Shown here: one piece after another, positions 3,047 through 5,675 of the stretch
Position numbering within the stretch: position 1 is the first letter of the stretch
Layout of the letters: the number at the start of each line of letters is the position of its first letter
Assembly: GCA_030690245.1 (NCBI GenBank)
Contig: JAUYGW010000113.1
Coordinates: 1-11,353, forward strand
DNA: 11,353 nt
From: Gallionella sp.
GTDB lineage: Bacteria; Pseudomonadota; Gammaproteobacteria; Burkholderiales; Gallionellaceae
Reading direction: 5' to 3'
Notes under the pieces: model-generated
What the model saw: only the letters and a program-made list of their open reading frames with translations
What the model was told of the DNA's origin: nothing
Databases searched by the model: none
Position numbers and translations under genes: made by a program

Positions 3047-5599
3047 TTATACACGCAACTGCGCACCTTGCCGTTGCAGCATGTCCACCAGCAGCGCGAT
3101 GCTTGTTTCAATTTCAGAATCAGTCAGTGTTTTTTGAGTATCTTGTAATAACACACGGAATGCAAGGCTTTTTTTGCCTTGCTCCACACCCTTGCCGCGA
3201 TACACATCGAACAGCGCAACCTCCGACACACAAGGCGCGGCAGCCTGCTGCATCGCGTCCAGCAAGGTTTGCGCGGCGACCGCCTCGTCGACCACTACCG
3301 CCAGATCGCGCCGCACCGGCAGGGACTTGGCGATTTCGCTCATATGCGGCACTGCCGCCCGTGTCAGCGTGCCGAGTTCGACTTCAAACCACACGGCGGG
3401 CTGAGCCATATCGTATTGCTGCTGCCAGCGCGGATGCAGCTCGCCGATCCAGCCGACTGCCTGCGCGCCGCAATAAATCTGCGCGGAGCGCCCCGGATGC
3501 AAGGCCGGATGGGTTGCCGCAACAAAGCGCACCAGTTGCGGCGCGAACAAGGCTTCGACATCCGCTTTCACATCGTAGAAGTCGACCGATTTGGCGGCAG
3601 CTCCCCATTGTTCGGGCAGGGTCGCACCATATGCCAGACCGGATAACTGTTGGCTTTGCACATACTCGCCATTCACTTTGGCAAAACATGCACCGGCCTC
3701 GAACAAGCGCACCCGCACCTGCTTGCGATTCAGGTTAAAGCGCAACGCGCCGACCAGCCCGCCGATCAGGCTGCTGCGCATCACCGACAGATTGCTGGCG
3801 ATCGGGTTTTGCAGCGCAACAGCCTTGTCGTTGCCGCACAATTCGCGCTCGACCTGTTCTTCGACAAACGCATAGCTGACAATTTCCTGGTAATCGCGCG
3901 CAACAAGAGTCTGTTGAATGCGTGCCAGCGGACGCTGCGACTCGCTGTATGGCAGCATGTTCAGTGCGGCCTGCGGAGCTTGCGCTGGGATGTTGTCGTA
4001 GCCATACAGGCGCGCCAGCTCTTCGATCAGGTCTGCCTCGATGGACAGATCGAAACGGAAGCTCGGCGGCATCACGCTGAAATCGTCGTCCAACAAAGGC
4101 CTCGCAGAGGCGGCGATTGCCCCCTCCCCCGCCGGGATTGAAGATTGCTTTTCTCGTTCGCCTCCTCGCCCGCTTGCGGGATAACCAGCGGCTTGCCCAT
4201 CGTTTTTTGATGGGTTAGCCGAATGGCTAGTTGTTCCATCAGAGGATTGAGGAGAGGGCATCGGGGGAGGGTTGGGGAGAGGGCTATTCACCGTGAAATC
4301 CAATTGCAGCCGCTTCAACAGGGTCGCAATCTGAATATTATCCAGCGTAATGCCGAGCACCCGCGCGACGCGCGAGCGGCGCAGGGTGATTGCGGCACGC
4401 TGCGGAAGTTCGCCGCGCACTTCGGTAATTGCTCCGGCGCTGCCGCCGCAAATTTCCAGCAGCAGTTGCGTAGCGCGCTCCAGTGCCTGGCGCGTCGCGG
4501 CAAAATCCACGCCGCGCTCGAAGCGGAACGAAGAATCGGTTGCCAACCCAAAACGGCGCGCCTTGCCGGCGATCGCATCGGGATTGAAAAACGCGCTCTC
4601 CAAAAACACATCCCGCGTGGCGGTTTCCACGCCGCTGCCCTGCCCGCCCATGATACCAGCCAGCGCCAGCACGCGCGCATCGTCGGCGATGACCAGCACC
4701 TCCTCATCCAGCACCACTGCCTGCTCGTTGAGCAAGGTCAGCGACTCGCTGTTGCGCGCCCTGCGCACGGTAATGCCGCCGGACAGTTGCGCCGCGTCGA
4801 AAGCGTGCAGCGGCTGACCCATTTCCAGCATCACGTAGTTGGTGATGTCCACCACCGCGCTGATACCGCGCAAGCCGCTGCGCTCCAGGCGGCGCAGCAT
4901 CCAGGTCGGTGTAGGCGCTGCGGCATTCACGCCGCGCACCAGGCGGCCGCAATACAGCGGGCAGGCCTGCGCATCGGCCACATGCACCGGCAATTGTTCG
5001 GTCAAGGTAACGGGTTGGATTTGAATTTCCAGCGGCTTAAGCAGACTGCCGGTCAACGCCGCGACTTCACGCGCCACACCAACCATGCCGGAGCAATCGC
5101 TGCGGTTCGGCGTGAGCTTCAGCGTGAACAACTTGTCGTCCAGCTCCAGATATTCGCGCAGCGTCTTACCCACCGGCGTGTCGGCCGGCAACAGCCACAG
5201 GCCCTGGCTTTCTTCGGCCAAGCCCAGCTCTTTTTCGGAGCACAACATGCCGAACGACTCGACGTTGCGCACCTTGGCCTGTTTGATCGCAAAGTCGCCG
5301 GGCAGCACCGCGCCGATGCGCGCGCAAGGCACTTTCGCGCCGACTGTGACATTCGCCGCGCCGCAAACGATGGTCAGCGGTTGCGCTTCGCCGACGTTCA
5401 CCTGGCACAGGTTCAAGCGATCCGCGTTAGGGTGCTTAACCACTTCCAGCACTTCGGCGACCACCACATTATCGAACGCAGGCGCGACGGCTTCCAGCGC
5501 CTCGACTTCCAGCCCGGCCATGGTCAGCGCATGCGCCAACACCTCGCTGGAGAGTGCCGGATTGACCCAGGTTCTTAACCAATTTTCAGAGAATTTCAT
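3047..5599 (-). CDS. pheT: Phenylalanine-tRNA ligase beta subunit, with unusual internal insert
   Basis: PheT is the beta subunit of the (alpha-beta)2 enzyme that charges tRNA-Phe; it binds the tRNA and edits mischarged Tyr. The protein has 850 residues against about 795 in E. coli. Domains in order: N-terminal MKFSENWLRTWVNP; an EMAP-like tRNA-binding domain (about 40-150); the B3/B4 editing region (about 210-380); the B5 domain (about 400-565) ending DLIEELARLYGYDNIP; a catalytic-like core; and a C-terminal FDX-ACB anticodon-binding domain (about 755-850). The extra length is an insert at about 438-503, between LQLDFTV and DDDFSVMPPSFRFD, listed separately. Removing it leaves about 784 residues, a normal size. 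The ribosome-binding site is weak, and 124 bp holding a palindromic repeat separate it from pheS. Confidence 0.97.
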   Translation of the reverse strand: MKFSENWLRTWVNPALSSEVLAHALTMAGLEVEALEAVAPAFDNVVVAEVLEVVKHPNADRLNLCQVNVGEAQPLTIVCGAANVTVGAKVPCARIGAVLPGDFAIKQAKVRNVESFGMLCSEKELGLAEESQGLWLLPADTPVGKTLREYLELDDKLFTLKLTPNRSDCSGMVGVAREVAALTGSLLKPLEIQIQPVTLTEQLPVHVADAQACPLYCGRLVRGVNAAAPTPTWMLRRLERSGLRGISAVVDITNYVMLEMGQPLHAFDAAQLSGGITVRRARNSESLTLLNEQAVVLDEEVLVIADDARVLALAGIMGGQGSGVETATRDVFLESAFFNPDAIAGKARRFGLATDSSFRFERGVDFAATRQALERATQLLLEICGGSAGAITEVRGELPQRAAITLRRSRVARVLGITLDNIQIATLLKRLQLDFTVNSPLPNPPPMPSPQSSDGTTSHSANPSKNDGQAAGYPASGRGGEREKQSSIPAGEGAIAASARPLLDDDFSVMPPSFRFDLSIEADLIEELARLYGYDNIPAQAPQAALNMLPYSESQRPLARIQQTLVARDYQEIVSYAFVEEQVERELCGNDKAVALQNPIASNLSVMRSSLIGGLVGALRFNLNRKQVRVRLFEAGACFAKVNGEYVQSQQLSGLAYGATLPEQWGAAAKSVDFYDVKADVEALFAPQLVRFVAATHPALHPGRSAQIYCGAQAVGWIGELHPRWQQQYDMAQPAVWFEVELGTLTRAAVPHMSEIAKSLPVRRDLAVVVDEAVAAQTLLDAMQQAAAPCVSEVALFDVYRGKGVEQGKKSLAFRVLLQDTQKTLTDSEIETSIALLVDMLQRQGAQLRV
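4091..4288. repeat. Hairpin-rich element inserted in frame within pheT
   Basis: About 198 bp interrupt the B5 domain of pheT without a stop or frameshift, adding about 66 residues rich in Pro, Ser, Gly and Ala (about 438-503). Family knowledge places only a short beta-turn here. The DNA carries several perfect stem-loops: GCCTC/GAGGC (4099-4111), CCCGC/GCGGG with a two-base loop (4169-4180), CCCATC/GATGGG around a T6 loop (4196-4214) and TAGCC/GGCTA (4216-4229). Its ends carry C-rich/G-rich tracts on one strand: GCCCCCTCCCCCGCCGGG near 4118-4135 and GGGGGAGGGTTGGGGAGAGG near 4263-4282. That pattern resembles repeat families of the CCCTCTCCC type scattered in proteobacterial genomes. Exact ends are uncertain by several bases, and I cannot confirm other copies from this window. 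Confidence 0.65.
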
Positions 5600-5631: not shown

Positions 5632-5675
5632 GTAGGTCGGGCTACGCCCGACATGGTGGGCAAAGCCCACCCTAC
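5632..5675. repeat. Double palindrome (REP/BIME-like) between pheS and pheT
   Basis: Two perfect 7-bp stem-loops lie side by side: GTCGGGC-TAC-GCCCGAC (5636-5652) and GGTGGGC-AAA-GCCCACC (5655-5671). They are enclosed by GTAGG (5632) and CCTAC (ending 5675), so the whole 44-bp unit is itself inverted. Units of this form (TGTAGGTCGGGC...GCCCACCCTACA) are familiar extragenic palindromes in proteobacteria. In the mRNA it would form stable structures between pheS and pheT, perhaps stabilising the upstream message or changing the subunit ratio. It lacks a T tract and so is not a typical terminator. Confidence 0.75.

Follow-up and report, generated by a model that had tools for sequence, protein, structure and literature searches.

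The gene for the beta subunit of phenylalanine--tRNA ligase (pheT) in the DNA analysed here, an 11,353-nt stretch from Gallionella sp. (the window), carries an insert that is very probably a stack of small, non-autonomous palindromic mobile elements, nested one in another and each in frame. Three such elements can be told apart: a 69-bp C-rich palindrome, within it a 66-bp element, and within that a 60-bp hairpin core. Relatives show other states of the same PheT codon, namely an empty site, about 23 extra residues, 45 extra residues and a protein of 870 amino acids, next to the 65 extra residues of the window, and the core recurs as a dispersed repeat throughout the host genome and the family Gallionellaceae.

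The insert in PheT

A single open frame on the minus strand encodes an 850-residue PheT (Table 1). In the closest relative compared (G021), residues 438 and 504 of the window protein are joined: residues 1-438 and 504-850 align contiguously with 95% amino acid identity, and the insert is therefore residues 439-503, that is, 65 codons or 195 bp. Several same-genus relatives have a PheT of 785 residues. A preliminary description of this DNA had placed an in-frame insert of approximately 198 bp and 66 residues at 4091-4288; the in-frame insert holds, but comparison with relatives ends it at 4285, one codon shorter. Its remarks that the segment has no stop codon and a length divisible by three are borne out by the open frame and the 195 bp.

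At the corresponding place in homologous solved PheRS beta chains only three residues separate the two matched parts, so the insert would fall, as first described, at a short turn. The best Pfam B5 stretch in the window protein lies downstream of the insert only. An AlphaFold model built on 65 sequences is weak overall (mean pLDDT 53) and, at this quality, gives the insert a pLDDT below 50 and no secondary structure, flanked by strands 434-437 and 507-510.

Table 1. Features of the pheT locus, in window coordinates.
Feature	Position	Strand	Basis
pheT, phenylalanine--tRNA ligase beta subunit	3047..5599	-	open frame; Pfam tRNA_bind, B3_4, B5, CLM domain, FDX-ACB
whole composite insert, 195 bp, 65 codons (residues 439-503)	4091..4285	-	residues 438 and 504 contiguous in empty relatives
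stage-1 element, 5' part, 24 of 69 bp (boundary uncertain by a few bp)	4262..4285	-	alignment with G027, G022
stage-1 element, 3' part, 45 of 69 bp, with small palindrome 4099-4111	4091..4135	-	base-by-base alignment
stage-2 element, 5' part, 21 of 66 bp, in the stage-1 palindrome loop	4241..4261	-	alignment with G008
stage-2 element, 3' part, 45 of 66 bp, hairpin CCCGCAAGCGGG at 4169-4180	4136..4180	-	base-by-base alignment
stage-3 core, 60-bp hairpin unit GATGGAAC...GCTGGTTAT, read as DGTTSHSANPSKNDGQAAGY	4181..4240	-	covariance-model hit 4181-4241, 85.2 bits
CT dinucleotide directly before the core unit, target register	4241..4242	-	CT counts across cores
outer stem arm CCCTCCCCCG	4122..4131	+	inverted-repeat pair
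outer stem arm CGGGGGAGGG, opposite arm	4262..4271	+	inverted-repeat pair

The perfect stems reported earlier are present in the insert DNA. In addition to the outer stem (Table 1), GCCTC/GAGGC lies at 4099-4111 and CCCGC/GCGGG at 4169-4180, and in CCCATC/GATGGG positions 4196-4201 pair with 4209-4214. The coding strand of the 198 nt folds moderately better than its shuffles (z -1.80, with 8 of 200 shuffles equally good) and the opposite strand has a z of -2.25 (3 of 200 equally good). It is copy number in the host genome, not the folding score, that raises the insert above chance, and the proposal of a repeat-derived insert shaped by DNA structure is supported by the comparisons with relatives and by the genomic copies.

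Nested stages in relatives

The PheT site was aligned in 29 of 30 same-genus loci (L088 was left out for a motif mismatch). No palindromic insert is present in 21 of these, including G023, which shows five odd residues there; G016 has a local duplication of eight residues, and seven sites have inserts. As such, the segment is not an ancestral domain common to all relatives. In base-by-base comparison, the 69-bp stage-1 palindrome is the only element in G027 and G022, and shorter or modified versions related to it occur in G025, G035 and G030. G008 has stages 1 and 2, the additional 66-bp element lying inside the loop of the stage-1 palindrome. Compared with this stage, the window has a further 60-bp core, which follows the CT preceding the hairpin of the second element. 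All three steps lengthen the gene by a number of base pairs divisible by three. The preliminary description was correct in that the insert is palindromic and in frame, but a single element of the Rickettsia type becomes three nested ones.

Database proteins extend the series. P0001, from another contig, is an 850-residue PheT at the same stage 3 as the window, and P0002 (870 residues, another contig, seen as protein only) represents a stage 4 with a second core within the first, DGTT-GETTSHLTRLSKDDSQVIGY-SHSANPSKNDGQAAGY. In P0028 the core sits directly in stage 1, and in P0004 it is mostly deleted. Among the best 120 of 572 protein matches, selected by likeness to the insert region, script sorting gave 56 empty, 32 stage-1-like and five stage-2-like sites and two at stage 3 or 4; the remainder were 22 that are not PheT or have no motif and three without the left anchor, two of which (P0003 and P0028) contain cores. 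A second PheT position, after residue 642, has inserts of its own in G029, P0024 and P0063, and that of P0051 contains the core.

Other small irregularities were seen in these proteins. The insert of P0003 at the B5 site includes an extra eight-residue piece, PSTSSGQA, apparently from a different palindrome family. Several relatives have small in-frame insertions after residues 102 and 132, of about six residues (SDNEKG-like) or of eight residues, GPSTELRT, the latter possibly of palindromic-repeat origin. One draft, G017, has two pheT loci (C23 and C4) and a 3% contamination estimate, and is probably a mixed bin.

We infer that the stages are a record of successive insertions. A C-rich palindrome would first land in a tolerant turn of the B5 domain and leave a probably disordered stretch that carries further CT targets. 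Because the first palindrome would supply such a stretch, later elements could insert within the earlier one and be tolerated likewise, as in a landing-pad ratchet, with disorder as the presumed reason for tolerance. Host selection would purge insertions that cause a stop, a frameshift or damage to structured parts, and this purifying filter would leave as survivors multiple-of-three units read in a hydrophilic, stop-free frame.

The history of the last steps may differ from this order. The insert of the window is identical to that of G008 at 137 of 144 nt (95%), compared with 83.1% for the gene backbone, and in the PheT tree the window stands among empty relatives, the nearest of which (G021, G020, G017 and G018) are all empty. 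Since the clade is empty and the insert so similar, the last step may have been recombination. A nested insert that arrived ready-made, either because a short pheT tract was exchanged by homologous recombination or through conversion from similar composites elsewhere in the genome, is a serious possibility, if somewhat short of an even chance; outer composites without the core do occur at other places in the genome (C72, C34 and C41). However, successive stages differ by exactly one element each, and cores placed directly in stage 1 (P0028) and at the second pheT site (P0051) need several insertions. Such recombination would alter the last steps only and leave the mobile origin unaffected.

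An assembly or binning artefact is scarcely credible. The host assembly is indeed a draft of 357 contigs, 82.5% complete and with 4.45% contamination, but G008 has the same composite at the same codon, and the database proteins P0001 and P0002 have the composite together with the core. A loop that gives PheRS a function, for example in binding a partner or RNA, would account for the persistence of the insert in an essential gene and for the same stage in two lineages (the window and P0001). Patchy presence, variable length at the site, partial deletion in P0004 and the occurrence of the same peptide in unrelated proteins make such an adaptive role very unlikely.

The core as a dispersed repeat family

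A blastn search with the insert against the host draft genome found 56 places at E <= 10, the weakest at chance level. Similar copies lie all over this genome, some in frame within other genes, in line with the repeat origin first proposed. The 60-bp hairpin core is separable from the C-rich outer sequence, which is found alone elsewhere (C72, C34). A covariance model of the core built from 28 own-genome copies matched 65 copies in the host draft (E <= 0.01), all but three of them with E below 1.5e-5. The stem covaries, with double changes in nine of 16 pairs (43 cells against a shuffled mean of 11.4). At the Rfam gathering score the window contains two tRNAs only, and the insert region gave one sub-threshold match (E 0.12).

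The core is also widespread in the family. At E <= 1e-4 it is matched in 35 of 37 genomes of the genus (host included) and in 103 of 120 genomes and 14 of 15 genera of the Gallionellaceae, where per-genome counts near 45 are to be read as at least that number; it was absent at the same threshold from all 24 genomes of other families of the order. Furthermore, a pattern scan of named contigs found at least 116 stretches with the core pattern. Eight of these are titled Sulfuricella (2), Sulfuricaulis (1), Thiobacillus (2) or Gammaproteobacteria (3), and the other 108 Gallionella, Gallionellaceae, Gallionellales, Sideroxydans, Ferrigenium, or only Nitrosomonadales, Betaproteobacteria or Proteobacteria. 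Two IMG/VR viral contigs (L254 and L255) match the core pattern exactly and are a possible vehicle between hosts.

The position and length of the core follow simple rules. The unit directly follows CT in 142 of 200 distinct cores, against a background of 5.0%, and CT is present in 173 of 200 when leaders of 9-12 nt are allowed, the remaining 27 having no CT in reach. The unit is divisible by three in 157 of 173 measurable cores (119 of 60 bp, 37 of 54 and one of 57); as there are only three length classes, common ancestry may account for this no less than selection. Several reading frames of the core are open. A general preference for insertion into hairpins is not supported: when the flanks of the 200 cores were joined, 139 were enclosed, a share close to the 67.7% and 67.2% of the two controls (random or CT-matched sites).

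Nesting of other kinds was also encountered. Head-to-tail or core-in-core arrangements (..GGTTAT/AGCCATTCG..) occur at L015 1303-1411 (host C217) and L028 941-1001 (host C7); they fit insertion after a CT within the core and resemble the arrangement in the stage-4 protein P0002. A larger palindromic frame, TTAACGTGAAACTCGCGCAGCGATTCGTT ... GCGAGTTTCATTATCAGGGG..CCCGTTA, encloses several C-rich elements (L002, L007, L008 and L009) as another level of nesting. In the window, CACGGATTA / TATCCGTGGCTAAT recur as imperfect inverted copies in the intergenic stretch 1955-2110 and make up a further repeat-like palindrome.

Cores inside other genes

Genic cores in the host genome were judged by hand from 22 printed frames across cores, together with Pfam and NCBIfam matches; this procedure was used because a codon-usage test proved too insensitive. 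Fourteen cores, that of pheT included, were judged to be genic and in frame. Nine of the 22 frames (C171, C185, C33, C117, C8, C305:4465, C324:2206, C7 and C217:4272) were left out because they lay upstream of the likely start, were cut by a contig end or had no family support across the core; the exclusion of C185, where a reverse-transcriptase match precedes a core read antisense, is arguable. For ten of the 14, a family match spans the core or lies on both sides: PheT, an RlmN-like protein (NF011034), an acyl-CoA ligase, MoeA, MobA, a TgpA-like protein, HemW, an AddA-like protein, glucokinase and KdsB. The match is on one side only for an RNB exonuclease, CoaX, MMPL and ORF6N proteins. None of the 33 relatives with a listed match to the N-terminal part of HemW has the HemW insert; their alignments end at 280-283 and restart at 324-328. 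Similar peptides occur in database copies of GlnE, P-type ATPases, a GltB-like protein, MurE, MutL, Mfd and others; these were located through the peptide itself and so cannot be used for frame counts.

Twelve of the 14 genic cores share one hydrophilic frame, which reads ..TTSHS.. or something closely similar (p 8e-5 for an expectation of one third). This bears on whether the segment is removed from the RNA or skipped by the ribosome. Introns and the mitochondrial 'byp' elements, segments skipped by the ribosome, are models for such behaviour, and the segment is hairpin-rich and occurs in essential genes. Nevertheless, the genic copies are open, multiple-of-three and biased to one frame, none of which removal would require, and this explanation is highly improbable.

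Genic cores make up 11 of the 24 lying in C-rich host elements and three of the 41 elsewhere (Fisher p 4.7e-4, for a C-rich host-element pattern that was defined after seeing the data). This concentration in C-rich hosts supports the landing-pad reading. The closed genome G064 has 29 cores, none clearly genic when frames were read by eye. When codon usage was applied to 145 cores, taken from 116 stretches of other genomes, it placed 11 of them in frame within genes, compared with 18.2% of random sites; cores are thus depleted from genes by this test, which was too insensitive for genic position.

A bolder proposal is that the core is a mobile element adapted to intragenic life. Its multiple-of-three unit (54 or 60 bp) and its hydrophilic, stop-free favoured frame would be maintained because lineages that pass through coding sequence are among the survivors, and nesting in in-frame copies of itself and of other elements would build ever longer disordered loops. 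We regard this as speculative and rather unlikely. If true, essential enzymes throughout the Gallionellaceae would keep gaining new protein segments from the intragenic core.

Search for the mover

Several candidate movers were considered. The sequences at the two ends of the unit, GATG.. and ..TTAT, do not mirror each other as terminal inverted repeats would, and no target-site duplication is visible from stage 2 to stage 3 in pheT (+60 bp), a single filled/empty pair from different species. TnpAREP cleaves at CT (PMC8266576), which by analogy makes a single-strand mechanism for the core plausible, no more. Single-strand transposition of the REP/IS200-like HUH type is the leading guess, although less likely than not, and is favoured because of the CT register, the hairpin and the lack of a visible target duplication.

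A narrower version, in which a RAYT of the genome moves the core as an ordinary GTAG/CGTC-tagged REP, is improbable. The hairpin and the CT register with its TnpAREP parallel (PMC8266576) suit it, as does the presence of Y1-family genes in many core-bearing genomes. However, neither the GTAG nor the CGTC tag occurs in the core consensus, whether from 28 or 209 copies, and no core flanking a Y1 gene was found at the loci searched. One survey of 30 sources gave a single marginal match (E 0.13), and a second, of 33 sources, a single place with a core, 0.9 kb off and with lipB between. This place, on host contig C305 (L352 866-926, 1752-2186), is the one case at the loci searched of a Y1-transposase-like gene with a core within 1.5 kb, and since lipB intervenes there is no flanking relation. 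Moreover, the drafts G022 and G035 have no Y1 candidate and carry 90 and 35 cores, respectively. A Y1/RAYT link to the cores was accordingly set aside at the loci examined. Separately, GTAG-tagged palindromes do occur between pheS and pheT at 5632-5675 of the window, where two of them stand side by side and oppositely oriented (gtaggtcgggctacgcccgac / gtgggcaaagcccaccctac), resembling a classical REP pair.

Other candidates were similarly discarded. IS110 (PF02371) has no match at E <= 1e-5 in the core-rich genomes G007 and G016. A recurrent neighbouring ORF was rejected, since ORFs near cores, read by eye, resemble shared orthologous neighbourhoods. An integron attC site was set aside because the core ends do not appear to fit the attC consensus.

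Comparison with known systems

Small dispersed repeats are also found in cyanobacteria, as tiny hairpin repeats in and between genes. Most protein-coding palindromes on record come from Rickettsia, and REPs account for scattered cases elsewhere. In PheT, one codon of an essential synthetase has empty, one-, two-, three- and four-element states across environmental iron oxidisers. Because relatives show all these states, one can test directly in which order the elements arrived, what they cost the enzyme and what becomes of the peptide. For annotation, peptides such as TTSHST..QVAGY in Gallionellaceae proteins are probably translated mobile DNA and not domains.

The Rickettsia palindromic elements (RPEs) are described in a 2024 review as short palindromic repeats of approximately 150 bp, many per genome, a share of which lie in frame in unrelated housekeeping genes (PMC10969869). 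The parallel drawn in the preliminary description is apt: the elements in PheT are likewise palindromic, multi-copy and in frame within unrelated genes. They differ in unit length (54-69 bp), in their host group, in the placing of the core after CT and in nesting up to four deep at one codon, and the likeness to RPEs drawn here concerns their published features. The same review calls RPE-like protein evolution in other prokaryotes 'conceivable' (PMC10969869).

Intragenic GTAG/CGTC REPs are reported from free-living Opitutus terrae, Thauera, Xanthomonas oryzae and others, where they code for 20-30 residues, or 43-82 in clusters, in hosts that include repair genes and tRNA synthetases (PMC3733652). 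In contrast, the Gallionellaceae core has no GTAG/CGTC tag, and no RAYT flanked by it was found. Intragenic REPs are described in that source as dimers or clusters (PMC3733652), whereas PheT presents a nested series with living intermediates. Bacterial MITEs, such as the QMITEs of Coxiella, are presented as small, non-autonomous, dispersed and sometimes in frame in genes (PMC5896051); the core differs from them in unit ends without terminal inverted repeats and in the filled/empty comparison without target duplication.

The main text of a Gallionellaceae pangenome paper contains no word beginning with palindrom-, transpos- or mobile (PMC10734462), and none of the papers listed in searches of the open-licence PMC literature could be recognised, from the listings, as describing the core family; the insert peptide strings were likewise unmatched there. 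To summarize, in-frame palindromes such as RPEs and intragenic REPs are a known kind, and the core family and its nested series look new.
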